From the NCBI GenBank assembly GCA_031275085.1, contig JAISPG010000041.1, positions 1 to 64,000 of the forward strand: a stretch of DNA of 64,000 nt, given 5' to 3'. Each line of letters opens with the position of its first letter. The first letter of the stretch is position 1. The position numbers and the translations under genes were made by a program. Below are positions 3,866 through 59,434 of this stretch, one piece after another. The notes beneath the pieces are model-generated. The model was not told where the DNA came from and did not search any database. It saw nothing but the letters and a program-made list of their open reading frames with translations. This DNA comes from Bacteroidales bacterium. GTDB taxonomy: Bacteria > Bacteroidota > Bacteroidia > Bacteroidales > ML635J-15.

Positions 3866-5218
3866 ATGAGAATTCATTTTATCGCAATTGGAGGAAGTGC
3901 AATGCACAATCTTGCTATAGCACTACATAAAAAAGGATATAAAGTTACAGGATCGGATGATGAAATTTTTGAACCTTCACGGTCAAGACTGGAAAAATAT
4001 GGTCTTTTACCTGTAAAACAAGGTTGGTTTCCTGAACAAATCAATGAAAATATAGATATAATAATTCTCGGAATGCATGCCAGGATAGACAATCCTGAAT
4101 TACTAAGAGCTCAGGAATTAAATCTAAAAATATATTCATACCCGGAATATTTGTTTGAACAGACAAAAAATAAAAAAAGAGTTGTTATAGGTGGCAGCCA
4201 CGGAAAAACCAGTATCACATCCATGATAATGCATGTTCTCAAACATAACAACATTAATTTTGATTACATGGTCGGAGCAAATATCAAAGGTTTTGATACT
4301 ATGGTTAACCTGGAAGAAAAAAATGATGTTGCAATATTTGAAGGAGACGAATACCTCTCTTCTCCTATCGATATGACACCAAAATTCCACTGGTATAAAC
4401 CACATATTGCTGTTCTGACAGGAATTGCATGGGATCATATAAATGTTTTTCCTACTTTTGAAAACTACGTAAAACAATTTGAAATATTTATAAAATCAAT
4501 TGAAAAAGGCGGAAAACTCTTCTGGTATGAAGATGATAAAGAACTAAAAAAAATAAATAAATCAAATAAAGATATTCAATCCATATCATATAACAATGCT
4601 GATTATTTCACAGATAAAGAAGGAAATTCCTGCATAAAGATAAATGACAAAATTTTTATCCTTTCAATTTTCGGGGATCATAATTTCCAGAATGCAAATG
4701 CAGCAAGACTTGTTTGTAATGAATTAGGCATAAATGATATGGAATTCTGGAACGCTATGCAAACTTTTGAAGGTGCGGCAAAAAGACTTCAATTAATACG
4801 TCAAAATAAAGAAACAGCATTTTATATTGATTTTGCACATGCTCCGTCAAAACTAAAAGCTACAATAAACGCACTGAAACAAAAATATCAGGACCGTAAA
4901 TTAATAGCATGTATAGAATTACATACATTCAGTAGTCTTCAGGCAAATTTCATACCACAATATAAAAATACAATGGAAAATGCCGACACTGCAATTGTTT
5001 ATTTTAACCCAGAAGTTATAAAACATAAAAGATTGCCTGAAATTTCCAGGGATTTTGTAAAAAGCTCATTCGGAGATAACGTAATGGTATTTACAGATAC
5101 GCTTGCACTTCAACAATTCCTGAAAAAAACAGACCTTAATAATACTAATATTTTAATGATGAGCAGTGGAAATTTTAATGGCATTGATTTTGCTGAATTT
5201 GCCGAAGAACTTATATAA
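3866..5218 (+). CDS. mpl: UDP-N-acetylmuramate:L-Ala-gamma-D-Glu-meso-DAP ligase, peptidoglycan recycling
   Basis: 450 residues, the length of Mpl. A Rossmann-like N-terminus (IHFIAIGGSAMHNLAIALHKKGYKVTGSDDEIFEPS) resembles MurC, followed by the ATP-binding GSHGKTS (residues 110-116), FEGDEY, and the AWDHINVFPTF metal/His motif. Mpl joins the recycled tripeptide L-Ala-gamma-D-Glu-meso-DAP to UDP-MurNAc, saving cell-wall material. Mpl differs from MurC in lacking the last part of the canonical N-terminal motif and in its MHARxDNPEL segment, which is seen here (GMHARIDNPEL). It lies three bases after gmhA in the same operon. Presence of Mpl implies meso-DAP peptidoglycan. Confidence 0.92.
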   Translation: MRIHFIAIGGSAMHNLAIALHKKGYKVTGSDDEIFEPSRSRLEKYGLLPVKQGWFPEQINENIDIIILGMHARIDNPELLRAQELNLKIYSYPEYLFEQTKNKKRVVIGGSHGKTSITSMIMHVLKHNNINFDYMVGANIKGFDTMVNLEEKNDVAIFEGDEYLSSPIDMTPKFHWYKPHIAVLTGIAWDHINVFPTFENYVKQFEIFIKSIEKGGKLFWYEDDKELKKINKSNKDIQSISYNNADYFTDKEGNSCIKINDKIFILSIFGDHNFQNANAARLVCNELGINDMEFWNAMQTFEGAAKRLQLIRQNKETAFYIDFAHAPSKLKATINALKQKYQDRKLIACIELHTFSSLQANFIPQYKNTMENADTAIVYFNPEVIKHKRLPEISRDFVKSSFGDNVMVFTDTLALQQFLKKTDLNNTNILMMSSGNFNGIDFAEFAEELI

Positions 5219-8980: not shown

Positions 8981-11059
8981 ATGAAAAAATTTCTTGGTTT
9001 ATTTTTAATAATTCTTACACCTGTTATAATGCATGCACAAAAAGCCTCTATTGCAAAAGGTGATGAATATTATTACTCTTATATGTACGACCTGGCTAAG
9101 GATTATTACGAAAAAGCATTAGGCAGTATATCCAATACTAATGAAAAAGCACAGGTCGGCTACAAGTTGGGATATTGTTACAAAATGCTTCATGATTCCG
9201 AAAAATCTGAAATATATTTCGGAATAGCAGTGAAAAACTATTCGCAAGGAGTAACTCCTCCCGATGTATTATTGTATTATGCGGATGCTTTACGAATGAA
9301 CGGTAAATATGAAGATGCAATAGACATATATAAAGAATATATCAGATTGGCACCTAGTGATTATCGCGGACAAAGCGGGCTGGAATCCAGCGAACTGGCT
9401 CCAAAATGGCTAAATAAACCAACCAGATACAAAGTTACAAACATTGCAAAATTCAATTCACAATATTTTGATTTTTCTCCTACCTGGGCAACTAAAGATT
9501 TTCGCACAATATATTTCACATCATCAAGGGACGGAACTCAGGGAGACCGTACAAACAGAAGATCGGGACAAAGATTTACCGACCTTTTCGAAATTACACA
9601 AGACAGAAAAGGAACATGGAGTGAACCCGTACCGATTGCAGGTGCTGTTAACACTCCCGATGACGAAGGTGCCGCAACTATTAATATGAAAGGTACTGAA
9701 ATGTTTTACACAAGATGTAAAGGTGGTAAAAATACAAATGAACCTTGTCGTATTTTTTACTCTACAAAAAAAGGTAATGCCTGGAGTGATGGAATTTGGG
9801 TTGACTTAGCCGGATTTTCCAATTATGAAGTAGGATATCCTGCATTATCGCCGGATGATAAAATATTATACTTTTCTGCAAGTACCCCTGACGGTTACGG
9901 CGGAATGGATCTATATATGGCAAAAAGAGTAGGAACATCAGGATATAAATTTGAAAACGCTGTAAACCTGGGCCCCATAATCAATACTGCAGGAGACGAA
10001 GTGTATCCTACTGTAAATTCCGATGGTACAATATATTTTGCATCAGACGGGCATAAAGGTATGGGAGGATTGGATATATACGAAATTAAAAAAGACAATA
10101 ATGGCAACATTATTTCCGTAGAAAATCTGAAACCACCTATCAATTCTTCTTTTGATGATTTTGGAATCATTTTCAAAGGTAAGGAAAACTCAGGGTATTT
10201 TTCATCAAACCGTAAAGGAGGAAAAGGCAGCGATGACATATACGGATTTTCAATGCCACCACTGGTAATAACGCTTAACGGAGTTATCAGAGATACTACT
10301 GATATGACTAAGGTAAGAATGGTAAGTGATGCTAAAATAAAAATAACAAATGATGCAGGTATTGCAGGAGAACTTATTTCCTCAGCTACAGGCAGTTTCA
10401 ATTTTAAACTTCAGGAAAATCAAAGTTATAAAATACTGGCTGACGGTGGCGACGATTATTTTTCCAGTTCAATATCATTCTCAACCCATAACGTAGAATA
10501 TGATACGGCAATTAATGTTGTAATAAATTTAGCCAGAATTCCCAGAATCATAACTTTACCTAACATAGAATATGAATATGACAAAGCCGATCTGAAACCG
10601 GAATCCACTGTCGCTCTCGACGATCTGGTTAAAACCCTTAACGATAACCCGAGACTAGTTATAGAGTTACGTGCGCATACCGATTACAGAGGAAACGATG
10701 ATTACAACATGAACTTATCATTAAGGCGTGCCCAATCTTGTGTTGATTATCTGATTTCAAAAGGAATAAAACCCGACAGACTAAAAGCAAGAGGTTTTGG
10801 CGAAACAGATCCTAAGGTTATTGACGAAGAATTAGCAAAAAATTATCCATACTTTAAAGTAAATGATGTTCTGGCCGAATCTTACATTTTAAAATTAACA
10901 CCTGCACAGCAAGAAGTTGCAAACCAGTTGAACAGGCGTACGGAATTCAGTGTAATATCAAAAGATTACGGAACAAAATCAGGAGAACCTATTGAAGATG
11001 AAAAACAGCCTAATACAGGAACAGCTATAATAAAAACTAACGACGACGGCGATTTCTAG
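8981..11059 (+). CDS. PorE-like OmpA family protein (TPR, PD40, CarboxypepD-reg, OmpA)
   Basis: 692 residues with a signal peptide (MKKFLGLFLIILTPVIMHAQ). In order: TPR helices to about residue 135; PD40 propeller blades (RTIYFTSSRDGTQGDR, KILYFSASTPDGYGGMDLYMAK, GTIYFASDGHKGMGGLDIYEI); a regulatory-like beta domain from about 430; and an OmpA domain from about 525 (IEYEYDKADLKPES, LRAHTDYRGNDDYNMNLSLRRAQ) with the peptidoglycan-binding Asp/Arg pattern. This is the layout of PorE, which anchors the T9SS to peptidoglycan. The tail after the OmpA domain has a family-type insertion (DEELAKNYPYF). Only 38 nt separate it from the paralogue upstream. Several T9SS cargo genes lie in the window. Paralogues of PorE are common, so the exact role is uncertain. 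Confidence 0.85.
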   Translation: MKKFLGLFLIILTPVIMHAQKASIAKGDEYYYSYMYDLAKDYYEKALGSISNTNEKAQVGYKLGYCYKMLHDSEKSEIYFGIAVKNYSQGVTPPDVLLYYADALRMNGKYEDAIDIYKEYIRLAPSDYRGQSGLESSELAPKWLNKPTRYKVTNIAKFNSQYFDFSPTWATKDFRTIYFTSSRDGTQGDRTNRRSGQRFTDLFEITQDRKGTWSEPVPIAGAVNTPDDEGAATINMKGTEMFYTRCKGGKNTNEPCRIFYSTKKGNAWSDGIWVDLAGFSNYEVGYPALSPDDKILYFSASTPDGYGGMDLYMAKRVGTSGYKFENAVNLGPIINTAGDEVYPTVNSDGTIYFASDGHKGMGGLDIYEIKKDNNGNIISVENLKPPINSSFDDFGIIFKGKENSGYFSSNRKGGKGSDDIYGFSMPPLVITLNGVIRDTTDMTKVRMVSDAKIKITNDAGIAGELISSATGSFNFKLQENQSYKILADGGDDYFSSSISFSTHNVEYDTAINVVINLARIPRIITLPNIEYEYDKADLKPESTVALDDLVKTLNDNPRLVIELRAHTDYRGNDDYNMNLSLRRAQSCVDYLISKGIKPDRLKARGFGETDPKVIDEELAKNYPYFKVNDVLAESYILKLTPAQQEVANQLNRRTEFSVISKDYGTKSGEPIEDEKQPNTGTAIIKTNDDGDF

Positions 11060-43949: not shown

Positions 43950-46900
43950 ATGAAAAAAAATATCTATATATCGTTATTAATCCTGATTTACCTACTATTA
44001 TCTGAAAATCCTTTCTATGGTCAGAATAGTTGTGATCCTTTAATAAAAACAAATCAACATTCAGGAAATAGTTTCGACTATGTTTCAAAAGAGAATGTAC
44101 ACTTTAAACATGGATTTTCTTATAAACCTACCGGTTCAAATTCGCTAAAGGCATCTACAGATCCGTATCAGATATGCGAACTTAACAGCCAACATATAGT
44201 TAATGGTTATAATTCGCAAAATCAGTATCAACACAATAATAGCCTTCCGGTAGGGAGTATTCCCGGGATTGCCGACGTATCAGCTACCGGTGCTGCAACA
44301 TATACAATTCCTATTTATGCAAGTCCAGGAACTGCAGGAATGGAGCCATCAATTTCTGTAACTTACAACAGCCAGTCAGGAAATGGTATCCTTGGAATGG
44401 GATGGCATATAACCGGTCTATCAGCTATATCTCTTACTTCAAATTCGTACTATAATGACGGATATTTTGAAGCAGTAAAATTCAATAATGCCTCCACTCC
44501 CAAAGACAGATATAGCATAAGATATGCACTTGACGGCAACAGGCTTGTACGTACAGGCGGAACATACGGACAAAGCGGTTCGGTATACAGGACCGAAATT
44601 GAAACTTTTGCCAGAATTAATTATGATAATGATATATTTAAAGTTTACAGCAAAAACGGATATATTTCACATTATGGAAATAATAATAATTCCAGATATA
44701 AAATAACATCGGGGAATAATTCAAAAACACTGAACTGGCTGATAAATAAGATAGAGGACAGAAACGGTAATTATATAAATTATGAATATTATGAAATCGG
44801 CGGAGAAAGGCAGATAAAGAAAATATCATATACCGGAACCACAAATTTCGGACCTTATAATTCTATTGAGTTTTTTTATTCGGAACGCGATGATGTATCA
44901 ACAGCTTATGTAAGCGGCACAGAAATAAAACAATCTGTACTGTTAAACAGGATCGATATAAAACATAACGGATTTCTGGTAAAAAAATATGTTTTCAAAT
45001 ATATGCTGGAAGACGGCTATCCGGCAAAACTAAGTGAAATCACAGAATATGACAGTGACGGTAACTACCTGAATTCTACCGTAATAGAATGGAATTCTAA
45101 AGGTACGGCTTCTATTAATACTATCGGTGCGGAATATGATTTTCTGCAAAGCCCGATAACTTCAGGTCCTTTTATCAGTTGGGTATCCGGTGATTTTAAC
45201 GGTAACGGATTAAGAGATTTTGCCGCTGTTATCAATTATGCTTATACATCATTTGGAGAGCCTATTAAGAATTCATGGTTTATTGCTTACCTGAATAATG
45301 GGAACGGTACTTTCAGTAAAGAACAAAGGTGTTTAAGCGAGGATAATTTCTATGGGATATATTCCGGCGATTTTAATAATGACGGGTTAGATGAAATACT
45401 ATTGACAGACCAGAAAAACGGCAAAACTGACAGGCTTTATATTGACCTTGATTATAATAGTTATTTATGGTCATCCGAAAATTATATGGCTCAATCATCC
45501 GCAGAAGGAATAAAAAGAATATTTTTATCGGGGAATTTCTACGGTAATGGTAAAAAAAGTATGTTCTTTATGCAAAAGGATAAAATAGGAAACTCATTTA
45601 TATCCGAAACTATTTTAACAACCTATGATTCTATTGGTAATATTATTGACGGCATACCTGCAACAAAAATTTATAATTATTCAGAAAATAAGTTGTCATA
45701 TAATCCTGTAAGTCTTGATTTTGACGGTGATGGAATTACTGATTTTATCAATATTGATAATAACTCATTAAAAATATATGAATTTAATCTCACTACAAGA
45801 ATATTGGATGTTTTATATGAAATTCCAGGTTCAATAATTAATTTCGATAATTTCTTATTGCCCGAATCATATAAAAATTTTAAATTTGGTGATATTAATG
45901 GTGACGGAAAAACTGATTTAATGGTTAAACAAGCCGGGACAAAAGTAAATACATGGAAAGTATATATATCTGACGGTACAAAATATATTGAAAAAGGAAC
46001 ATTTTATCCTGATACATACTATTCGGTAATTTACCTGGCAGATATGAACGGTGACGGTATGGCAGACATTATAGATACTTACGATATCAATCCTATGAAA
46101 ATACGGATAAATCTTTCTTATGGGGATGGAACGTTCAAAGCTTTGAATGTTATTAATGCCAGCGGGAACGGAGATATTGTATGTCCCCTGGGATTCGACG
46201 ATTTTGACGGCGACGGCATAACCGATATTGTTTACGGAAAAACACGACCATCAATCTGTTATCACAATAAAAACGATAAAAGCCGTATGGTAAAAAAAAT
46301 AACCGATGGTTTTAAAAATATAAATGAATTTACATATACAACTATAGCAAAACATAACCGAGAAATAAATTTCCCCGTAAGTTCCAACTTTAATATGGCA
46401 GATACTTACCTGCTTACAGGTCCCTTAAATGTAGTGAGTATTTTTAAACAATCAACAGGATTAAACAGTACTACTTTGTCTCAAACTTCCTATCAATATA
46501 GAAACGGAAGAATACATTACTATGGAAAAGGATTTTTGGGATTCGGTGAGATTATTGCAAAAAATACAACTTCAAATTTGTATAAGACCATACAGAATAC
46601 ATTTAACTATGAACATTACGTAATATCAACCACAAGAATAACAACAGGTACCGGAACTATTCCATACAGCGGCACGATCATTTCAGTACAATCTTCCCAA
46701 ATGCTTATAAAACAAATGGATATATCAGCATATCCGGCATGGCTGGCTATGCTTCCACAGACTCAAACAGAGACAGACTATTCCGGATACTGCGAAAACT
46801 ATGTAAGAACAACCTACAATTATATGAATTTAAATTCGGGAACTTTCTTAGGAAATCCCGAATCAATAAAAGTAGATTATGCCGGCGTTCATGAAGTTAC

Positions 46901-49900
46901 AACCAATTTCAGCGGATATTCTTCAGCTGGGTCCTGGTGTGCATCAAAGCCGTCAGTCATAAAGGAAACACGAAAACTAACCGGGTATAATGATAATTTT
47001 GTAACTAAAAAAACTATTTCATATAACTCCAACGGAACAATATATCAAATTATTTCGGACTCCGATCCTTCTGGAGAAAAACCATTGACGGAAAGATTTA
47101 CTTATGACAATCATGGTAATATTACAAATAAACTTACAATCGGACGCGACGGGGAAAGCACCACAACAGCACAAAGATCGGTAAGTTTTGAATATGACAG
47201 ATATAAGCGTTTTGTAACCGTAAGTACAAATGATAATACGGGATTATCCGAAACAATGGCTTATGATCCCTTATACGGAAATATTATCAAGCACACCGAT
47301 GATTATGGAAATTTAACAAGATATGAATACGACGGATTCGGAAATATTATAAAAATACATTCACCTACAGGTCATACAACAGATATAGAACGCGCCTGGG
47401 AAAACAGTGTGCAGAACAATGTGGCATATTCGGTCACGACCACAAGCCCCGGAAGACCTCAAACCAAAGTATGGTACGATATTCTCGGCAGGGAAATAAA
47501 ATCAAGTACTGATTTTTACAACCAGACTATTGTTACCGAAAAACAGTATAATCCCGACGGTACATTATATAAAGAAAGCCTTCCTTATTTCTCTACAGGT
47601 TCAGCTTCCAGATGGAAAACATATTCTTATAATGCCTCAAAAAGACCTGTAAGCATATCTTCATTAAACCTTACAACACAATATTCGTACGGAACAAAAT
47701 CGGAAACAATCACATATCCCGACGGAACATATTATACAATAAACACCAACAATGCCGGACAAACGACTAATGTAACATCTTCGGAAGGCAGTATCAACTA
47801 TCTGTACCATTCCACAGGACAACCAAAAAAAATAACAGCCAATGGAATTGTAACAGATATGGAATACGACGAGTATGGCAGGCAGTCGGCATTAATTGAC
47901 GCAAATTCAGGAAGAACCGAATATGAATATAATGCTTTCGGAGAATTAATAAAACAGACCGATGCTAAACAAAGTTACTTTAAATTTGTATATGATAATG
48001 CAGGACGTTTAATTAACGAAACATGCAATAATATTACATTCAGTAAAACTTATACATATTATACTTCGGGAGATTCAAAAGGCATGCTTCAAAAAGAAAG
48101 TATGAACAACAATACATACAGGGAATATACCTACGACAATTACGGTAATATCACTTATATAAAGGAATATATAGGCGGAAACACTTTTAACCATTATTAT
48201 ACATACGACCAGTACAATAATCCTGAAACTTACACATATCCTTCAGGGTTTAAAATAAATAAAACATACAATCCCTGCGGTTACCTTACAAAAGTATCGG
48301 AAGAAAGCACTTCAACAGGGGCAGTATGGCAGGTATCCGGTTCTGGTTATATAAATGAAGCCGGGCAATTGCTGAACTACAAGCTGGGCCCCAACAATAT
48401 AAATACTACATATTCATACAATACTTATTATGAACTTACACGCATAACAAGCGGTAACTTTTTTGATTATTCATACTCTTTCAATCATACCAAAGGGACT
48501 TTAACATCGCGTACCGATAATAAAACAGGGAAATATGAAAGTTTTACATATGATAATACGAACAGGCTCAAGACCTGGCAGGTTTCCGGACAAACACAGC
48601 AAAGCATTACATATGATATAAACTCAGGAAATAAAGGCAATATTACCGAAAAGTCGGATGTAGGGACTTATGTTTACAAGGGCGACAAGCCTCATGCAGT
48701 AAGTGAAGTATACGGCAATAATGTATTCGGATTACAAAGTGTAAACAATCAGTATGTGACATTCAACCCCTTGCATAAGGCTTCGCAGATAAGGGAAGGA
48801 ACAAATATTTACAAATGTGATATAATATATGGTGCCGATTCCCAAAGGAAAAGAACACTGTTATACCAGAACAATGCATTAAAAGTTACAAAATATTATT
48901 CCGGTCTTTACGAAAAAGAAATAACAGCAGGGGGCGATACCAGGGAGATCCACTATATTCCAGGAGGCGACGGCATTGCAGCAGTACATATTATCACAAA
49001 CGGGAACTCACAGTCAGGTGTTACTTACTATCTGGCAAAGGATCATCTTGGTTCCGTAATGGCTGTAACCGACAAAGACCAGAATATAGTACGATCCCAC
49101 AGTTATGATGCCTGGGGCAATATGAGGGATTATACAACCTGGAGTTATGATAATGTAAATACTGATTTTATAGTAAACAGAGGGTTTACAGGGCATGAAA
49201 TGTTACCTGAATTCGGATTAATAAATATGAACGGACGTTTATATGATCCGGTAATTGCAATGGTGATCAGCCCCGATAATTATGTGCAGGCTCCGGGGAA
49301 TGCGTATAATTATAACAGGTATTCGTATTGTTTGAATAATCCGTTGAAGTATACAGACCCTAGTGGAGAGCTTATCTTTGGATTCTTAAGAAGCGTTGTT
49401 GATGCCATAAAACATGGTGATATTTCACGTATGGACCCCACATTAAAAGGTACGGCAATAAATAATTCGATCAGGATTTGGGGAGGACTGTTTATTACTG
49501 ATCCTAATAAACAAGGTAACGGAGGAAGAATATGGGAATTTGTTTCAAGATTTACTTGGCAAGCTCCTAATACTTTGGCAGGTTTTTTTACAGGACATTT
49601 TACAAATACTTTCAAAGATGTGTATAGTGTAGATTATTTTGGAGGAGCAACAGTATTAGAAACATCTTGGAAAAAAGGAAGTTTCAGTTTGGGTTCTTAT
49701 ATCCAATTAAGTAAATATCATAGTATCTATGAAAGTTACTTAGACCCAATAAGCGGAGAAGAAAAAGAAGGATTAGGTGCAACTTTCATACATGAATACG
49801 GACATTATATCCAAAGTCAAAAAGTAGGACCATTTTATGCCATAAAGTATGCCTTACCGAGTGTTTTTACAAATAATTATACAAAACCTGAAACAGACGC

Positions 49901-50111
49901 AAATATGAGGGCATACGGATATTTTTCTAAATATTATTCTCATAAAATGCCAGTATATGAGAAATATATATTCAATCCTGACACAGGAACTTATGATAGG
50001 AAAATATCCGATTGGAATAACGATAGGTATCCTAAAAGCCACAATAATCTCAAATGGTGGGAAGCATTAATACCACCTTTATGGCCATTTATGCCTTTAT
50101 GGAATTATTAA
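43950..50111 (+). CDS. RHS/YD-repeat polymorphic toxin with SpvB and FG-GAP domains and an HExxH C-terminus
   Basis: 2053 residues. Signal peptide (to FYGQ); SpvB-like domain (LPVGSIPGIADVSATGAATY, GILGMGWHITGLSAIS, about 100-260); FG-GAP/VCBS repeats (GDFNGNGLRDF, LDFDGDGITDF, GDINGDGKTDLM, ADMNGDGMADII, about 415-760); YD repeats from about 1000; and the RHS core (YLAKDHLGSVMAVTDKD, SYDAWGNMRDY, FTGHEMLPEFGLINMNGRLYDPVI, DPSGE ending at 1807). The variable tail (1808-2053) has HEYGH (1948-1952) in FIHEYGHYIQSQKVG, then KPETDANMRAYGYFSK, suggesting a zinc-metallopeptidase-like effector. The core should form a cocoon around the tail. The layout resembles fused TcB/TcC toxins. It is the third gene of its operon, followed by candidate immunity and cassette genes. 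Confidence 0.93.
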   Translation: MKKNIYISLLILIYLLLSENPFYGQNSCDPLIKTNQHSGNSFDYVSKENVHFKHGFSYKPTGSNSLKASTDPYQICELNSQHIVNGYNSQNQYQHNNSLPVGSIPGIADVSATGAATYTIPIYASPGTAGMEPSISVTYNSQSGNGILGMGWHITGLSAISLTSNSYYNDGYFEAVKFNNASTPKDRYSIRYALDGNRLVRTGGTYGQSGSVYRTEIETFARINYDNDIFKVYSKNGYISHYGNNNNSRYKITSGNNSKTLNWLINKIEDRNGNYINYEYYEIGGERQIKKISYTGTTNFGPYNSIEFFYSERDDVSTAYVSGTEIKQSVLLNRIDIKHNGFLVKKYVFKYMLEDGYPAKLSEITEYDSDGNYLNSTVIEWNSKGTASINTIGAEYDFLQSPITSGPFISWVSGDFNGNGLRDFAAVINYAYTSFGEPIKNSWFIAYLNNGNGTFSKEQRCLSEDNFYGIYSGDFNNDGLDEILLTDQKNGKTDRLYIDLDYNSYLWSSENYMAQSSAEGIKRIFLSGNFYGNGKKSMFFMQKDKIGNSFISETILTTYDSIGNIIDGIPATKIYNYSENKLSYNPVSLDFDGDGITDFINIDNNSLKIYEFNLTTRILDVLYEIPGSIINFDNFLLPESYKNFKFGDINGDGKTDLMVKQAGTKVNTWKVYISDGTKYIEKGTFYPDTYYSVIYLADMNGDGMADIIDTYDINPMKIRINLSYGDGTFKALNVINASGNGDIVCPLGFDDFDGDGITDIVYGKTRPSICYHNKNDKSRMVKKITDGFKNINEFTYTTIAKHNREINFPVSSNFNMADTYLLTGPLNVVSIFKQSTGLNSTTLSQTSYQYRNGRIHYYGKGFLGFGEIIAKNTTSNLYKTIQNTFNYEHYVISTTRITTGTGTIPYSGTIISVQSSQMLIKQMDISAYPAWLAMLPQTQTETDYSGYCENYVRTTYNYMNLNSGTFLGNPESIKVDYAGVHEVTTNFSGYSSAGSWCASKPSVIKETRKLTGYNDNFVTKKTISYNSNGTIYQIISDSDPSGEKPLTERFTYDNHGNITNKLTIGRDGESTTTAQRSVSFEYDRYKRFVTVSTNDNTGLSETMAYDPLYGNIIKHTDDYGNLTRYEYDGFGNIIKIHSPTGHTTDIERAWENSVQNNVAYSVTTTSPGRPQTKVWYDILGREIKSSTDFYNQTIVTEKQYNPDGTLYKESLPYFSTGSASRWKTYSYNASKRPVSISSLNLTTQYSYGTKSETITYPDGTYYTINTNNAGQTTNVTSSEGSINYLYHSTGQPKKITANGIVTDMEYDEYGRQSALIDANSGRTEYEYNAFGELIKQTDAKQSYFKFVYDNAGRLINETCNNITFSKTYTYYTSGDSKGMLQKESMNNNTYREYTYDNYGNITYIKEYIGGNTFNHYYTYDQYNNPETYTYPSGFKINKTYNPCGYLTKVSEESTSTGAVWQVSGSGYINEAGQLLNYKLGPNNINTTYSYNTYYELTRITSGNFFDYSYSFNHTKGTLTSRTDNKTGKYESFTYDNTNRLKTWQVSGQTQQSITYDINSGNKGNITEKSDVGTYVYKGDKPHAVSEVYGNNVFGLQSVNNQYVTFNPLHKASQIREGTNIYKCDIIYGADSQRKRTLLYQNNALKVTKYYSGLYEKEITAGGDTREIHYIPGGDGIAAVHIITNGNSQSGVTYYLAKDHLGSVMAVTDKDQNIVRSHSYDAWGNMRDYTTWSYDNVNTDFIVNRGFTGHEMLPEFGLINMNGRLYDPVIAMVISPDNYVQAPGNAYNYNRYSYCLNNPLKYTDPSGELIFGFLRSVVDAIKHGDISRMDPTLKGTAINNSIRIWGGLFITDPNKQGNGGRIWEFVSRFTWQAPNTLAGFFTGHFTNTFKDVYSVDYFGGATVLETSWKKGSFSLGSYIQLSKYHSIYESYLDPISGEEKEGLGATFIHEYGHYIQSQKVGPFYAIKYALPSVFTNNYTKPETDANMRAYGYFSKYYSHKMPVYEKYIFNPDTGTYDRKISDWNNDRYPKSHNNLKWWEALIPPLWPFMPLWNY
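49222..49370 (+). repeat. RHS core-end homology block, main copy
   Basis: 149 bp coding the NMNGRLYDP to DPSGE part of the core. The first ~100 bp differ from the block at 52288-52436 at only three positions; then the two drift apart. Equal length and frame would let recombination swap the toxin tail. Confidence 0.9.
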
Positions 50112-50547: not shown

Positions 50548-51342
50548 CATGTAGGTTCAAACAGCTCCATTATAAATTTATTCGGGAAATATTATAATCC
50601 ATACCGGGGAATAAATGCCTCAACTTGGGGAAGCAACGCCCTAAATAGGAAATTAAATAATGTTGATTGGGGACAATTTGGATTAAATACAGTTGTCGGG
50701 GGAGTTTCTGGAGTTGCCGGTTATTATGGAGGACAGTGGGCAGGTAAACATTTAGGAGGAGTTGTAATAAACGGATTTAAAATAAATAGTCCTGTTTTAC
50801 AAGGAGCGGTTACCGGAGCTGCAGGGGGAGCTGCCGGAGGCTATGCAGGTGGTTTTACCGGAGGTTTATTGATGACCGGTGATGCTAATTTGGCTCATCA
50901 ATCAGGAATGAGCGGATTAAAAATGGGGGCTGGAATTGGGGTTACAACAGGTTTTGCAGGTGGGTATTATGGTGCAAAACAAACAGGAATAAATCCGTGG
51001 ACGGGAAAAAGTTTAACTCAAAAGTTAAATTTGTTAGACTATGATTTTTCTCCTGATGCAAATGGAAATAATGTAAAGATGTATAGAGGAATAACCGGAC
51101 ATGAAAATTCAAATAAACCTTTATTTTTAGCAGACTCTCCAGAATATGCACGTAGTTATAGTGCAGATGTTGTTGAAATTACGATAAATAAGACAGCTTA
51201 TTATGAGCTTAGAAACTCTTCTCTTCCTGGTATTGAAACAAACGTTGGTATTAATTATTCTAATGGAGTTCGAGGAGGAGAATATGTTATTCACAATCAA
51301 CAATTAAAAATATATATAATCAAAATAATACAAAACAGATGA
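50548..51342 (+). pseudogene. Displaced RHS C-terminal cassette with ADP-ribosyltransferase-like domain, no start codon
   Basis: The frame is open from 50548 (after TAG) to the TGA at 51342, but the first ATG is at 50869, in the middle of a Gly/Ala-rich stretch (GAAGGAAGGYAGGF) typical of the part just behind an RHS core. The C-terminal ~90 residues (KMYRGITGHE, PLFLADSPEYARSYSADVVEI, GVRGGEYVI) follow the R...S/F...E pattern of ART-like toxins. There is no RHS core and no signal sequence, so the module is not expected to be delivered as it stands. A product from 50869 (157 residues) could still be made. Its stop overlaps the ATG of the next gene (ATGA). Probably a tail moved aside by an earlier cassette exchange. 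Confidence 0.65.
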
Positions 51343-51650
51343 TTGATAAAAATTTAAAATATTGTTGTGATTTTTTTGAATCAAGACATCGTTCGTACAA
51401 TCATTCTTGGCCTAATATTATGATAGTAAAATATACTCATGATTTTTTTATAAACACTAATCTTTCTAAAAATAAAATTAATAGCCCATACCGATTTTGG
51501 ATAACATTTGGTCATGAAGTTTTTAGCTTAGACAACGTAATGATTAATATTACATATTGTCCATTTTGTGGGAAAAATTTATTTGAATTTTATGACTCTG
51601 ATGAATATGTAAATGAGATTGAAGGAAAAACATTTTCAATGATTAAATAA
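51339..51650 (+). CDS. CPFCG zinc-ribbon-like protein, candidate immunity protein A
   Basis: 103 residues, no signal peptide. A two-part Cys pattern, KYCCDFF near the start and TYCPFCGKNLFEFY near residue 80, could form a small zinc site. A conserved middle (SPYRFWITFGHEVFSLDNVMI) and end (SDEYVNEIEGKTF) recur in the next gene. The start ATG overlaps the TGA of the ART-like cassette, so the two were probably translated together. That position fits the immunity partner of the cassette. The family has no function I can name. Confidence 0.65.
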   Translation: MIDKNLKYCCDFFESRHRSYNHSWPNIMIVKYTHDFFINTNLSKNKINSPYRFWITFGHEVFSLDNVMINITYCPFCGKNLFEFYDSDEYVNEIEGKTFSMIK

Positions 51651-51672: not shown

Positions 51673-51963
51673 ATGAAAACCAATAAAATTCAATATTGCT
51701 GTGATCGATTTAGTATTTATCATCAGGCACATAAACGAACATTTCCAAATATTAGAATAATAAAATATAAGTCTAAATTTTTAATAAATGGAGATAATCC
51801 TTACAGATTCTGGATAACAACTGGTTACGAAAAGTTTGATTTAGATAACGTTATGATACAAATTGTCTATTGTCCATTTTGTGGACAGGATTTATATAAA
51901 TTTTATAAATCAGATGAATATGCAAACGAAATAGAGGGAGTAACATTTCCGTTTGTGAAATAA
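51673..51963 (+). CDS. CPFCG protein, paralogue of the preceding gene, candidate immunity protein B
   Basis: 96 residues and clearly a paralogue of 51339-51650: both share YCCD near the start, PNIxIxKY, NPYRFWIT (SPYRFWIT), LDNVMIxI, YCPFCG and SDEYxNEIEGxTF. It has a one-codon-type deletion (FLINGDNPYRF) relative to its neighbour. Tandem paralogues of immunity genes are common behind polymorphic toxins, where one may guard against a related toxin of competitors. It lies 22 nt after the first copy. AT-rich sequence with no gene follows to 52130. Confidence 0.62.
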   Translation: MKTNKIQYCCDRFSIYHQAHKRTFPNIRIIKYKSKFLINGDNPYRFWITTGYEKFDLDNVMIQIVYCPFCGQDLYKFYKSDEYANEIEGVTFPFVK

Positions 51964-52130: not shown

Positions 52131-53312
52131 ATGGTATCTGTTTATGATCATACTGCCTTACCGCTGTTTTTCCATAATATAGAAGATGGTAAAACTGTGG
52201 AAAACTTTTATGATTTTGAAATAACCATAATTTATACGGCTGATATATCCTCAAACTGTTTTAATGAAAGTTCATATAGTGGTTTGCTAAATATGAACGG
52301 ACGTTTATATGATCCGGTAATTGCAATGGTGATCAGTCCCGATAATTATGTGCAGGCTCCGGGTAATGCATATAATTATAACAGGTACACTTATTGTTTT
52401 AACAACCCACTCAGTTATACAGATCCTAGCGGGGAAGTAGCCTGGTTTGTACCTGTGATTATTGGAACTGTAATAGATACATACTCAGGTGGTATTATTG
52501 CAAACGAAGGACAATATAACCCCGGAAAATGGAATTGGGGATCAATGCAAACCTGGGGTTTTATGTATGGAGGCAGTATAATTGGTGCTATAAGCAGATA
52601 TGCAGGTTCGTCGATAGCAGGTTCAGGTATTCCAATGGCGAACACTGCTGCGATAGCAGGATCTTCGTCAATTTACTCGGTGGGGGTTTGGGCTTATACA
52701 GGCGGACAAATGCCAATCTCAATTAGTTTAGGTGTTGCTTCTTATGATTTCACGAATGGAATTTTTGGCTATCTTGGAAAAAAAGGTAACAAATGGTATC
52801 AAAATATAGCTTATGGTTTTGGCACTTTAGCGAATTTATCTGATGTTGTATCTTTATTTGGAGGAGGAACGGATTATAATATTAATGCTTCCAAAACAAA
52901 AACCGAGTGGTGGGGACATTCATCTGGAACAGGTGGTGATATAGATATATCTGTAGGGCCAAGTCCCAATAACCATTTATCTAAAATGAATTTTTTCAAA
53001 ATAATAAATGGAGAAAAATGGTCTAATTATGCTAATGATAAAGGAACATGGACACTGAAATTGAATAATGATAATAAGAAAATTTTGCAAAATATGACCA
53101 CTAATATACAAAATGACAAAGGGCTTCTATGGGGCGATTTAAAATGGAATTTAGTTGGATATAGTTGTGTTAACCATGTATCTCTTTCTTTATGGGCAGT
53201 CGGAGTTCCAACATTACCAATCAATTTACATCCTTACATTTTAAATACTCAATTATTAATTAGACAATTGGGGATATATTCATCACCATATTTATACAAC
53301 CATCCGTATTAA
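52131..53312 (+). CDS. Orphan RHS tail: core-end fragment plus a distinct C-terminal effector domain
   Basis: 393 residues from ATG 52131. The first ~50 residues are unrelated to RHS; then NMNGRLYDPVIAMVISPDNY to DPSGE (residues 53-102) repeat the end of the main RHS core almost exactly. The tail (103-393) has a Gly/Ala/Ser-rich hydrophobic part followed by WWGHSSGTGGDIDISVGPSP and the ending GYSCVNHVSLSLWAVGVPTLPINLHPYILNTQL. Cys346 and His349, and the later HP, are reminiscent of papain-like or NlpC-type folds seen in RHS tails, but this is tentative. No signal peptide and no full core, so delivery is unlikely without recombination into the main gene. Confidence 0.7.
   Translation: MVSVYDHTALPLFFHNIEDGKTVENFYDFEITIIYTADISSNCFNESSYSGLLNMNGRLYDPVIAMVISPDNYVQAPGNAYNYNRYTYCFNNPLSYTDPSGEVAWFVPVIIGTVIDTYSGGIIANEGQYNPGKWNWGSMQTWGFMYGGSIIGAISRYAGSSIAGSGIPMANTAAIAGSSSIYSVGVWAYTGGQMPISISLGVASYDFTNGIFGYLGKKGNKWYQNIAYGFGTLANLSDVVSLFGGGTDYNINASKTKTEWWGHSSGTGGDIDISVGPSPNNHLSKMNFFKIINGEKWSNYANDKGTWTLKLNNDNKKILQNMTTNIQNDKGLLWGDLKWNLVGYSCVNHVSLSLWAVGVPTLPINLHPYILNTQLLIRQLGIYSSPYLYNHPY
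52288..52436 (+). repeat. RHS core-end homology block, orphan copy
   Basis: Same 149-bp length and frame as 49222-49370; the first ~100 bp are nearly identical. It starts abruptly at TAAATATGAACGG, which suggests a recombination junction. Confidence 0.9.
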
Positions 53313-55841: not shown

Positions 55842-55960
55842 GGAAGAGAATATTTCTGTAACTATAAATTATTTTTATAGCAATGTCGATAATAAAGAAA
55901 AAAATAGTATATTTGTAAAGAGGTCATTTAAAAAATCATTACTAATTAAGTTTTATTTTT

Positions 55961-56260
55961 ATGAAAAAATTATTTTTAATTTTATCAACTGTAATTCTAC
56001 TGGTACTTTTTGGCTTTACTGAATCTAAAAGTCCGGAATTAAAAAACGATGCTGAACTTTCTATTGTTTCTTTGGACAATGTAGAAAGATCAGGTGATAG
56101 CTGGAGATGGGTTCAAGTAACATGTCCAGGTGGGAGTATAGGATGGAGCTGCCTGTTTTGTTTTTATCCTCATTGCTTGAAATGTACAGATTATCAAAAA
56201 CGGATTGGTACTACATGCGTTATTCCTATGACTCCTGAACCATTTGATCCTAACTTATAG
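55961..56260 (+). CDS. Small secreted Cys-rich peptide, NVEALA-like, copy 1
   Basis: 99 residues. A signal peptide (MKKLFLILSTVILLVLFGFTES) precedes ELSIVSLDNVERSGDSWRW. LDNVER followed by Ser-Gly-Asp resembles the N-V-E-A-L-A core that defines a family of small secreted Bacteroidetes proteins. The mature part has six cysteines (VTCPGG, WSC, LFCF, HC, KC, TTC). The fate of such peptides is unknown; they are usually encoded beside beta-propeller lipoproteins, as here. A -7 box TATATTTG (55908-55915) lies upstream, and the same region is copied before copy 2. Cysteine-rich with few basic residues, so not obviously a cationic antimicrobial. Confidence 0.75.
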   Translation: MKKLFLILSTVILLVLFGFTESKSPELKNDAELSIVSLDNVERSGDSWRWVQVTCPGGSIGWSCLFCFYPHCLKCTDYQKRIGTTCVIPMTPEPFDPNL

Positions 56261-56287
56261 TTATTAAGAGTGGTTTGATTATTAAAG

Positions 56288-56346
56288 ATAAGGTTACCCT
56301 ATCCTATAAGTATAATAAAAATAGTTTGGATAGCCTTATTTTTTAT
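56288..56346 (+). terminator. Terminator/attenuator after peptide copy 1
   Basis: ATAAGG (56288) and CTATCC pair with GGATAGCCTTAT (56328-56339), with mismatches in the left arm, followed by TTTTTTTA. It corresponds to the stem behind copy 2. Confidence 0.65.
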
Positions 56347-56373
56347 TTATAAAATTTGGAATAAAAATAAATA

Positions 56374-56640
56374 ACGAGCAAAAAATTTGTAGGTATAGGA
56401 ATTATTATCAGTTTATTTTATATCATTTTATTATTTTCTTTCAGCACTAAAAATCAAAATTCAGGTTGTAATTTGCAAAATATAAGTTTTATTACAGTTT
56501 CTATATTATCCGATAATATAGAAACAATCACAGACCTGAGAATAATTGAACACAATGATAGTCTATTCATATACATTATGGGCGACAGTAAAATAATTGT
56601 TTTAAACTATAAGCCGGAAGAAAAATTTCTGCAACAATAA
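56374..56640 (+). pseudogene. Truncated 5' copy of the DUF4221-like lipoprotein gene
   Basis: Aligned codon by codon with the gene at 57151, the start ATG has become ACG (56374-56376) and the lipobox Cys has become Ser (FSFSTKNQN instead of FSCNTKDQN). The frame then follows the intact gene (SGCNLQNISFI, NIETITDLRIIEHNDSLFIYIMGDSKIIVLNYKP) until the duplication junction adds EEKFLQQ and a stop at 56640. It has no start or anchor and should be non-functional. Confidence 0.9.
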
Positions 56641-56733
56641 ATTATTTTTATATAAATGTCCATAATAAAGAAAAAAATAGTATATTTGTAATGAGGTTAT
56701 TTAAAAAATCATTACTAATTAAATTTTATTTCT

Positions 56734-57033
56734 ATGAAAAATTTATTTTTAATTTTATCAACTGTAATTCTACTGGTACTTTTTGGCTTTACTGAATCTA
56801 AAAGTCCGGAATTAAAAAACGATGCTGATCTTTCTATTGTTTCTTTGGACAATGTAGAAAGAGCAGGTGATGGTTGGAGATGGGTTGAGGTAACATGTCC
56901 AAGTGGAGAAAAAGGATGGAGTTGCCTGATTGGTTTTTATCCTTTTTATTCATATTGCACAGATTATCAAAAACGGATTGGTACTACGTGCATTATTCCT
57001 ATGAATCCTGATCCATTTGATCCTAATTTATAA
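56734..57033 (+). CDS. Small secreted Cys-rich peptide, NVEALA-like, copy 2
   Basis: 99 residues, the tandem paralogue of 55961-56260. The signal peptide, LDNVERAGDGWRW, TDYQKRIGTTC and the end PFDPNL are nearly unchanged. The middle differs sharply: copy 1 reads CLFCFYPHCLKC, copy 2 CLIGFYPFYSYC, so this copy has four cysteines instead of six. Differences gathered in one loop suggest selection on that surface or relaxed pairing. It is followed by a perfect-stem terminator and then the intact lipoprotein gene. Role unknown; possibly secreted and handled by the partner lipoprotein. Confidence 0.75.
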   Translation: MKNLFLILSTVILLVLFGFTESKSPELKNDADLSIVSLDNVERAGDGWRWVEVTCPSGEKGWSCLIGFYPFYSYCTDYQKRIGTTCIIPMNPDPFDPNL

Positions 57034-57055
57034 TAGGATTTATTTTTATAAGATT

Positions 57056-57108
57056 ATAAGGCTATCCTGATTATATAATGAAGAATAAATATTAGGATAG
57101 CCTTATTT
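57056..57108 (+). terminator. Terminator/attenuator between peptide copy 2 and the lipoprotein gene
   Basis: The perfect 13-bp stem ATAAGGCTATCCT / AGGATAGCCTTAT with a long AT loop is followed by TTT. It sits between two genes of one module, so partial read-through may set a high peptide to lipoprotein ratio. Confidence 0.75.
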
Positions 57109-57150
57109 TAACTACCAAACCTGGCAATAAAAAATCAATACTAATAAGAA

Positions 57151-58323
57151 ATGAAAGGAAAATCAATTAATACAGGAATTATTATCGGTTTATTTAGTAT
57201 TACTTTATTGTTTTCTTGTAATACTAAAGATCAGAATTCAGGTTGTAGTTTACAAAACATAAGTTTTATTATAGATTCCATATTACCCGATAATATAAAA
57301 ACAATCACAGACCTGAGAATAATTGAACATAGTGATAGTGTATTCATATACATTATGGACGACAGTAAAATAATTGTTTTAAACTATAAACCCAATGATA
57401 TATCATTATATGATAGTATATATATCCCGAATGAAATAAGTGAATGTTTAAATTCTGGAGATTATAAATTTGAAACATTTTATCCCATTTCCCCAAATAA
57501 TATTATTTTATTCTATTCAAAATTACATATAGCCCAGAATGAAAGTTTAATTATAAACTATCACAGACCCGATAAAAAATTTGACACCTTACTGCATCTC
57601 AAGAATATGAATGTAATTTTATATTCAGATTTATCATATGAATCAAATGCAGTAAAATACGACTCTGAAAATGACAATCTTTATATAAGATGTCAATATA
57701 AAAATATTGATCAGGATGATAATAATTTGTATTATTTATCAAAACTAAATATACCAACAAAAGAGTTTAAAGTTCTTCCTATATCATATCCAAATGAATT
57801 TGAAAATTATAAAAATATGGCTACATATCATAACCTGGAATTTGATGTTTTTGATGAAAAGGTCATAACTTCTTTTTCATTTCCACATACTGTACTTATT
57901 TATAATACAAAAGAAAATACTACCTTCTTTAAGAAAATGGATACAAAAAATTGTGATGATATTCCTGTTTTTTCTGATAATGATTTGGAAAATTCTCCGG
58001 AATTACAACATGAAGCTTCAAAATTACATTTCAAGTATACTTCAATTTTATTTGATAAGTATAAAAATAATTATTTACGATTTTATGAAGCCAGTCAAAA
58101 TGAGATCAATGAGAATGGCGAATATTCTACTTTCAAAGATAAAAAAATAGGTTTTGCTTTATTTAATAATTCTTACAAAAAAACCTCAGATTGTATACTA
58201 GGAACAAAAAGAGAACTTAATCCATTATATAAAACATTTACCGTAACAAGTTATGGCATTTTATATTTTAGTACATACAAGTATGACACAAATCGTTTAT
58301 ATTTTACATTAATAAATTATTAA
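57151..58323 (+). CDS. DUF4221-like (six-bladed propeller) lipoprotein
   Basis: 390 residues. The signal sequence ends LLFSC|NTKD, a clear lipobox. The mature protein is made of repeating beta-strand units (VFIYIMDDSKIIVLNY, NIILFYSKLHI, NLYIRCQYKNI, VITSFSFPHTVLIYNTKENTT, NYLRFYEASQN, GILYFSTYKYDTNRLYFTLINY) consistent with a propeller. Its place behind an NVEALA-like gene matches the association of DUF4221/BF3164-type lipoproteins with such peptides. It probably sits on the outer membrane and may bind or guide the peptide. The partial copy upstream shows it was part of the duplicated module. The next gene starts one base after its stop. Confidence 0.75.
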   Translation: MKGKSINTGIIIGLFSITLLFSCNTKDQNSGCSLQNISFIIDSILPDNIKTITDLRIIEHSDSVFIYIMDDSKIIVLNYKPNDISLYDSIYIPNEISECLNSGDYKFETFYPISPNNIILFYSKLHIAQNESLIINYHRPDKKFDTLLHLKNMNVILYSDLSYESNAVKYDSENDNLYIRCQYKNIDQDDNNLYYLSKLNIPTKEFKVLPISYPNEFENYKNMATYHNLEFDVFDEKVITSFSFPHTVLIYNTKENTTFFKKMDTKNCDDIPVFSDNDLENSPELQHEASKLHFKYTSILFDKYKNNYLRFYEASQNEINENGEYSTFKDKKIGFALFNNSYKKTSDCILGTKRELNPLYKTFTVTSYGILYFSTYKYDTNRLYFTLINY

Positions 58324-58324
58324 G

Positions 58325-58774
58325 ATGAATCATATAAATAAATTTCTTATTCTATTCCTGTTAACTATTTTTATTTTATCTTGTAATAATAAAGATAAAA
58401 ATAAAGTTGGAAATGATTATGATAGAGAAAGCCATCTTATAAGTTTTCTTGATAAGAAAGATATTGGAATAAATATGCAAGACTATATCACTTCTATTTT
58501 AATAAATAGGCAGACATGTGACTGTGGAGACCCTGTTGATTCAAAAAAAACAGACAGATTTGATGAAATAAATAAAGAATATCTACCAGATAATAAAATA
58601 ATACTTTATGAAATAAAAGATACTAAAAATATAAAACATAACTTTGAAAATGCAGATAAGTATTATTATATCTTTGACGATTCGGAATCATTAGACAAAG
58701 CCGGCATAAGAAAAATTAGCTACATATTTGTTATAAAAAATAAAAAGATAATTTATTGGGAAGCTATACGTTAA
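58325..58774 (+). CDS. Small lipoprotein downstream of the DUF4221-like gene
   Basis: 149 residues with a good lipobox (IFILSC|NNKD). The mature part contains NRQTCDCGDPVDSKKTDRF, with a Cys-x-Cys, and a beta-rich end (KYYYIFDDSESL, ISYIFVIKNKKIIYWEAIR). I do not recognise the family. It is separated by one base from the upstream lipoprotein gene and surely shares its mRNA, so it should belong to the same peptide/propeller module. The Cys pair might act in disulfide handling for the Cys-rich peptides, but this is speculation. Confidence 0.65.
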   Translation: MNHINKFLILFLLTIFILSCNNKDKNKVGNDYDRESHLISFLDKKDIGINMQDYITSILINRQTCDCGDPVDSKKTDRFDEINKEYLPDNKIILYEIKDTKNIKHNFENADKYYYIFDDSESLDKAGIRKISYIFVIKNKKIIYWEAIR

Positions 58775-59089: not shown

Positions 59090-59434
59090 ATGCATTTAAC
59101 AGAAGATATCCTTAAACAACTTCCATTTGCGGTAACGGCATGCGATACCGAAGGAATCATAATATATATGAATGACAGATCAATTCAAACTTTTCAGAAA
59201 AGTGAGAATGAAAAACTTATTGGTAAACCTTTGTTTGATTGTCATAGTCCGCAATCTGCCGAAAAAATAAGATCTTTACTGTCAACCGGTGGTACAAATT
59301 CCTATACCATTGAAAAAAACGGACAAAAGAAGCTCATATATCAATGTCCCTGGTACAAAAATAATAAAATCGCAGGACTTGCAGAGATATCGTTACCAAT
59401 ACCTGCAGAAATGCCTAATTATATCCGTAAATAA
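59090..59434 (+). CDS. Single-domain PAS protein
   Basis: 114 residues, one PAS domain and nothing else. TEDILKQLPFAVTACDTEGIIIYMNDRSIQTF is the PAS core start. LIGKPLFDCHSPQSAEKI, YTIEKNGQKKLIYQCPWYKNNKIAGLAEISLPIPAEMP and the closing YIRK match a compact PAS family of anaerobes that carries CH-P-x-S and Q-x-PWY motifs. It may bind a small ligand or cofactor and work by partner contact. No output domain is encoded nearby. The following small gene (83 nt on) could be the partner. Confidence 0.85.
   Translation: MHLTEDILKQLPFAVTACDTEGIIIYMNDRSIQTFQKSENEKLIGKPLFDCHSPQSAEKIRSLLSTGGTNSYTIEKNGQKKLIYQCPWYKNNKIAGLAEISLPIPAEMPNYIRK

Follow-up and report, generated by a model that had tools for sequence, protein, structure and literature searches.

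On the forward strand of the window, the 64,000-nucleotide stretch of DNA from a Bacteroidales bacterium that we analyzed, a module of about 774 bp is repeated head to tail in two copies, as the first-pass annotation had described. Self-alignment of the window DNA placed repeat unit 1 at positions 55842 to 56614 and repeat unit 2 at 56615 to 57390 (junction at about 56614 and end at about 57390), with 83.8% identity over 764 aligned columns and 20 gap columns; the local matches between the units were 300 nucleotides (nt) at 92% and 267 nt at 83%. Within each unit, a TATATTTG box and a gene for a peptide of 99 amino acids are followed by a hairpin and by the 5′ portion of a lipoprotein gene; only the second lipoprotein gene is complete, running past the end of its unit. 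Both peptide genes are intact open reading frames (ORFs), as had been stated, with six cysteines encoded in peptide 1 (55961 to 56260) and four in peptide 2 (56734 to 57033). The complete lipoprotein gene (57151 to 58323; 390 amino acids) has a Pfam match to the beta-propeller family DUF4221 and is followed by a third operon gene, absent from the earlier annotation, for a thioredoxin-like lipoprotein of 149 amino acids with a CxC motif (58325 to 58774). The copy of the lipoprotein 5′ end in unit 1 (56374 to 56613) starts with ACG where the intact copy has ATG and is cut at the junction, after codon 80, both as first reported. Its lipid-anchor cysteine had been read as serine; in the codon alignment, this lipobox residue is phenylalanine (TGT to TTC), and it is the adjoining asparagine that is serine.

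A terminator had been assigned to each unit. The intercistronic terminator-like hairpin of unit 2 (57056 to 57106) is clear (z of −3.4, and −3.5 in a second analysis), and the spacer hairpin of unit 1 (56283 to 56344) is weak (z of −1.2). The TATATTTG boxes, located at 55908 to 55915 and at 56681 to 56688, occupy the same position within their units and resemble the Bacteroidota −7 promoter box, which has the consensus TAnnTTTG. Boxes of this type are not commoner than chance (11 matches in 4.2 kb versus 8.2 expected), so it is their kept position that argues for reading them as promoters.

The window lies on a contig of 210 kb from a genome that is 89% complete. The HisRS of this genome has at most 65% identity to the matches listed (80 named), all from Bacteroidales or other Bacteroidota. 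The lowest G+C contents were found in the 4-kb bins from 52001 (0.27) and 56001 (0.26), compared to 0.317 for the whole window. Upstream of the peptide operon lies a gene for a 2,053-amino-acid protein with RHS-repeat, SpvB, and FG-GAP matches (43950 to 50111); beyond it come small genes and an ORF that copies late RHS-core sequence of this protein (52131 to 53312), an arrangement that looks like a polymorphic-toxin-type locus. Among the small genes, 51339 to 51650 and 51673 to 51963 encode tandem related proteins (170 nt at 74% identity) with weak DUF6980 similarity under the cutoff; they may be immunity genes belonging to that locus. Searches of the peptide locus gave no family match in NCBIfam and no match in PHROGs. 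PADLOC gave no match for peptide 2 and a single weak match for peptide 1 (PDC-M06A; 15.3 bits, E value of 0.0043), which we took as chance. Close relatives of peptide 2 were absent from the collection of genome contigs, from the other 25 genomes of the genus, and from plasmids, and close relatives of the lipoprotein were absent from 60 other genomes and viral contigs. The two repeat copies were compared unpolarized, with no close relative as an outgroup.

The leaders of the two peptides point to the NVEALA family (PF14055). The Pfam model matched neither window peptide at E values up to 1, and we therefore do not assign them to the family; profile alignment of the window leader with hhalign scored 93.8% for NVEALA (E value of 1.8e-7), with two other profiles scoring 2.1% and 37.8%. 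The window leader aligns with the NVEALA leader as far as NVE, and ALA is absent, the window peptides having NVERSG or NVERAG instead of NVEALA. An LxN[VI]E motif within residues 26 to 65 occurred in none of 180 other signal-bearing ORFs. From this likeness, we call the window peptides a putative NVEALA-like variant. A double-glycine leader was also considered for them and was rejected, as the leader contains no GG.

The 390-amino-acid lipoprotein is a member of DUF4221 (PF13970), scoring 31.5 bits against a gathering cutoff of 23.4. The family profile matched the solved structure PDB 3s9j at an E value of 2.8e-56, and the protein's own sequence matched it at only 0.0047; its predicted model (pLDDT of 61) matched the same structure at 9.9e-12 in a fold search. 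The gene for the thioredoxin-like lipoprotein begins one base after the propeller gene. Its signal and both of its cysteines align with those of its counterparts encoded behind other DUF4221 genes, the window protein having CxC where the counterparts have CxxC. The family profile of these thioredoxin-like lipoproteins matched 8t4c, a thioredoxin oxidoreductase structure, at an E value of 8.2e-6, and the window protein alone matched no solved structure. Its predicted model (pLDDT of 58) was too low in confidence to be used for a fold comparison; taken together, the two models are of low to modest confidence.

The duplication had been called recent, and selection had been proposed to keep two peptides with one lipoprotein. 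The first of these is only partly right, as the divergence is a mosaic: the unit alignment contains an 86-nt identical run, a length reached by none of 20,000 shuffles, but the spacer is only 61% identical between the units and has four gap events (best of 100 shuffles, 58.6%). Codons 1 to 43 of the peptide genes, which encode the leader, have 2 changes in 129 bases and no synonymous change in 29 sites, and codons 44 to 73 have 20 changes in 90 bases, with about 6 synonymous changes in 18 sites. The lipoprotein sequence has 27 changes in the 108 bases of codons 1 to 36 and 10 in the 132 bases of codons 37 to 80. Such uneven divergence implies either that gene conversion has homogenized tracts or that the repeat represents an older module pair. 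The dN/dS ratio was 0.59 for the peptides (0.48 for residues 44 to 99) and 0.48 for the dead lipoprotein fragment; since the ratio for the peptides is no lower than that for the fragment, selection for two peptides is not demonstrated.

These similar ratios would also be expected if the second peptide had no adaptive value, peptide 1 simply not having decayed yet after a partial duplication, and that both frames are open is within what chance allows (a probability of about 0.13 to 0.36). We hold this explanation at less than even odds. Against it, gap events are distributed unevenly, with four in 108 aligned columns of the spacer and none in 240 of the lipoprotein fragment (P = 0.009), and the cysteine count of the cores differs by two (six in peptide 1 and four in peptide 2) and is even in both. 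A fragment with no gap in 240 bases and a dN/dS of 0.48 was probably constrained for a time, which suggests that lipoprotein 1 functioned as a gene for some time before it was truncated. Decayed-looking peptide copies, a type of evidence that the first-pass annotation had counted against selective retention, are present in relatives, at the loci L149, L150, and L037.

Parts of the module recur elsewhere. Two further contigs of the same genome, both short (5.5 and 7.3 kb), also carry DUF4221 genes, and on one of these, a peptide gene with a weak NVEALA match lies directly upstream of the DUF4221 gene and a CxxC lipoprotein gene lies downstream. In a class-wide sample of 396 genomes, DUF4221 was detected in 24 (E values up to 1e-10) and NVEALA in 9 (E values up to 0.001), 6 of them above the cutoff. 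There were at least 66 distinct DUF4221 places, with the best five or fewer candidates per genome scored in the class-wide sample, and 55 were examined; those left out were five weak places in the genus (G002, G005 twice, G009, and G020) and six further weak places (G177, G230, G268, G365, G404, and G474). A gene for an exported cysteine-containing peptide lay upstream in 18 of the 55 DUF4221 cases and in 7 of the 98 controls (P = 7e-5); one for a CxxC protein lay downstream in 18 and 1, respectively (P = 2e-8). The controls were other genes of at least 250 amino acids in the same loci. One match in each set of 18 looks spurious (L046 among the peptides and L088 among the CxxC proteins), and two peptides escape the upstream criterion, one with a double-glycine leader in L099 and one of the NVEALA family in L108. 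The association of DUF4221 with the peptide and CxxC genes is strong, yet it is limited to about one-third of the genes: by the criterion used, 37 of the 55, tandem arrays included, have no exported cysteine-containing peptide upstream. In L099, the cysteine-rich peptide before DUF4221 has a double-glycine leader and a C39 peptidase ORF is nearby (3896 to 4189), so the propeller also pairs with another leader type.

Starting from the peptides, we scanned 21 of the 26 proteins encoded behind NVEALA genes (omitting the repeats L031, L141, and L144 and the incomplete L023 and L136), and 19 of them belong to propeller families (DUF5128, 10; TolB_like, 8, with one protein matching both; DUF4221, 2). 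The remaining two had no family match (L120) or matched DUF1573 (L125). Multiple peptide genes also occur in these loci: in L157, two consecutive peptide genes precede two propeller genes, and L159 (4774 to 5277) has two tandem cysteine-rich peptide genes with similar cores, followed by one DUF5128 propeller gene present as two ORFs. The number of cysteines is even in 25 of 29 cysteine-bearing NVEALA-type peptides and in 17 of the 18 peptides upstream of DUF4221. A hairpin with a z of −2.4 or lower was found in 10 of 14 spacers tested, counting the spurious-looking L046, and a loose terminator scan was positive behind 18 of 22 NVEALA genes but also behind 70 of 143 control genes.

The proposal that the peptide is the varied part of the system was borne out for its core in relatives. 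Among 92 pairs of NVEALA-type peptides, each pair from within one genome, 87 had higher identity in the leader than in the core (mean identities of 0.57 and 0.19; 31 peptides from six genomes), a difference that is partly built in because the leader-end motif was used to find the peptides; 12 of 104 pairs had been dropped, as one core was shorter than 10 residues. The window pair follows the same leader/core trend in a milder form, with identities of 87% upstream, 98% in the leader, 83% in the core, and 53% in the spacer. The clearest case is the L157 pair, with identities of 1.00 over the upstream 120 nt, 0.98 in the leader, 0.36 in the core, and 0.28 over the next 300 nt, the last two at the level of single shuffles (0.34 and 0.39). 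The promoter-leader segments of this pair are thus near-identical and the core and downstream DNA appear unrelated, as in cassette exchange. A weaker form of this pattern is seen in the L145 pair. Three observations do not fit cassette exchange: the L150 genes at 9743 and 13952 are alike in both core DNA (0.75) and downstream DNA (0.71), many pairs in genome G468 have the leader in common but not the upstream bases, and the identities of the L145 pair in the core (0.41) and downstream DNA (0.42) are above its single shuffles (0.16 and 0.26). One peptide of this L150 pair lacks cysteine and may be frame-shifted, that is, a decayed copy.

Export-type genes accompany some of the NVEALA modules in relatives. 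Around the 26 NVEALA/propeller loci, phmmer detected signal peptidase I at 9, RND at 8, O-antigen-ligase-like proteins at 7, HlyD at 6, and TolC at 3, compared to 0 of 20 for each in control regions of similar total length drawn from eight genomes. Seed proteins came from four of the 26 loci (L036, L038, L158, and L159), and exclusion of seed loci left signal peptidase at 7 of 24 (without L036 and L038) and RND at 7 of 25 (without L158); one L153 ORF was matched by two seeds. A C39 peptidase was found at none of the 26 loci in this search. In L155, the gene order is peptide, propeller, CxxC lipoprotein, signal peptidase, and O-antigen-ligase-like protein, and L148 has the same genes in identical order with others interspersed. 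In the window, phmmer detected no RND, TolC, HlyD, signal peptidase, or O-antigen-ligase-like gene, and no peptidase-containing ABC transporter was recognized in the ORF list around the operon.

What we observed is how the operon is built, that this arrangement recurs in some of the relatives, and that leaders are more constant than cores; we hold the anatomy and family assignments with high confidence. Judging from the anatomy, the leader would direct the peptide through the inner membrane, disulfide formation in the peptide would be aided by the thioredoxin-like lipoprotein, the hairpin after the peptide gene would leave the peptide in excess over the lipoprotein, and the propeller would be the cognate surface partner of the peptide, either as immunity protein or as receptor. 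Recombination at the promoter-leader may have altered the cores. The two modules of the window would have diverged, lipoprotein 1 being cut by a later deletion or never whole, with two peptides for one propeller as the outcome. We slightly favor this account, in which two NVEALA-like cysteine-containing peptides, the DUF4221 propeller lipoprotein, and the thioredoxin-like lipoprotein form a three-part operon with these roles. More tentatively, NVEALA-type modules in general may constitute a polymorphic secreted-peptide system of Bacteroidota in which a promoter-leader cassette is reused, the disulfide core and propeller are exchanged together, and a dedicated signal peptidase and RND exporter serve secretion, with the window as an intermediate where a single propeller is shared by two cores that are diverging.

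As to its putative role, antagonism between related bacteria is the most likely, although we put it below even odds, and signaling is the second choice. For signaling, the peptide would act like a pheromone and be sensed at the surface by the propeller lipoprotein, with varied cores giving strain-specific signaling. The adjoining peptide and propeller genes and the greater constancy of the leaders are consistent with such a role, as is a LuxR-type regulator (labeled from reading) upstream of the NVEALA gene in L036, but no regulator gene was seen in the ORF list for the three-gene operon (a PAS-domain ORF lies elsewhere in the window, at 59090 to 59434), and we consider this reading rather unlikely. 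Least probable, and quite improbable, is metal or cofactor uptake with the peptide as a secreted carrier and the propeller as its surface receptor: in the portion of PMC10434189 consulted, the six-bladed propeller BT0664 of Bacteroides thetaiotaomicron is in the iron table (−4.2-fold, P = 0.353) and is near by number to the O-antigen-ligase gene BT0662 and lepB (BT0667), and the cobalamin-binding lipoprotein BT2095 ranks 13th among the fold matches of the propeller model, but cores vary greatly between paralogs and cysteine numbers are mostly even, fitting disulfides.

The first-pass annotation had called the system undescribed. We found no explanatory publication on the NVEALA or propeller families in a search that scarcely reached subscription journals and included no bioRxiv preprints, but the parts found in relatives are Pfam families already annotated in Bacteroidota, and the module resembles a wider, little-studied family. 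If the constant leader and exchanged core hold, this would be a competition or signaling system of Bacteroidota, and the pairing of core and propeller offers a direct binding test.

Three known systems can be compared with the locus. BVU_1028, the DUF4221 protein of PDB 3s9j, on which our literature search found no publication, has its family and fold in common with the window lipoprotein, at 17% identity over the aligned model. NVEALA peptides (PF14055), which are accompanied by propeller lipoproteins (PF15869, PF17170, and PF13970), share with the window peptides a hydrophobic N terminus, an LxNVE motif about 40 residues in, and a cysteine-containing core. A propeller lipoprotein gene follows them, as it does peptide 2, with peptide 1 preceding the cut copy; some of their loci have signal peptidase or exporter genes nearby, and the window has none. 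The nearest experimentally tested parallel that we met, by analogy, is that of the bacteroidetocins, whose loci, in the sections of the source consulted, pair a 4-cysteine peptide with a thiol oxidoreductase (PMC6671954). As in the window, a small multicysteine peptide (four cysteines there; four and six here) adjoins a thiol-redox-type gene. According to the same sections, bacteroidetocins have a 15-residue double-glycine leader, a peptidase-domain ABC transporter, and no obvious immunity protein, whereas the leader in the window is longer and hydrophobic and the operon includes a propeller lipoprotein.
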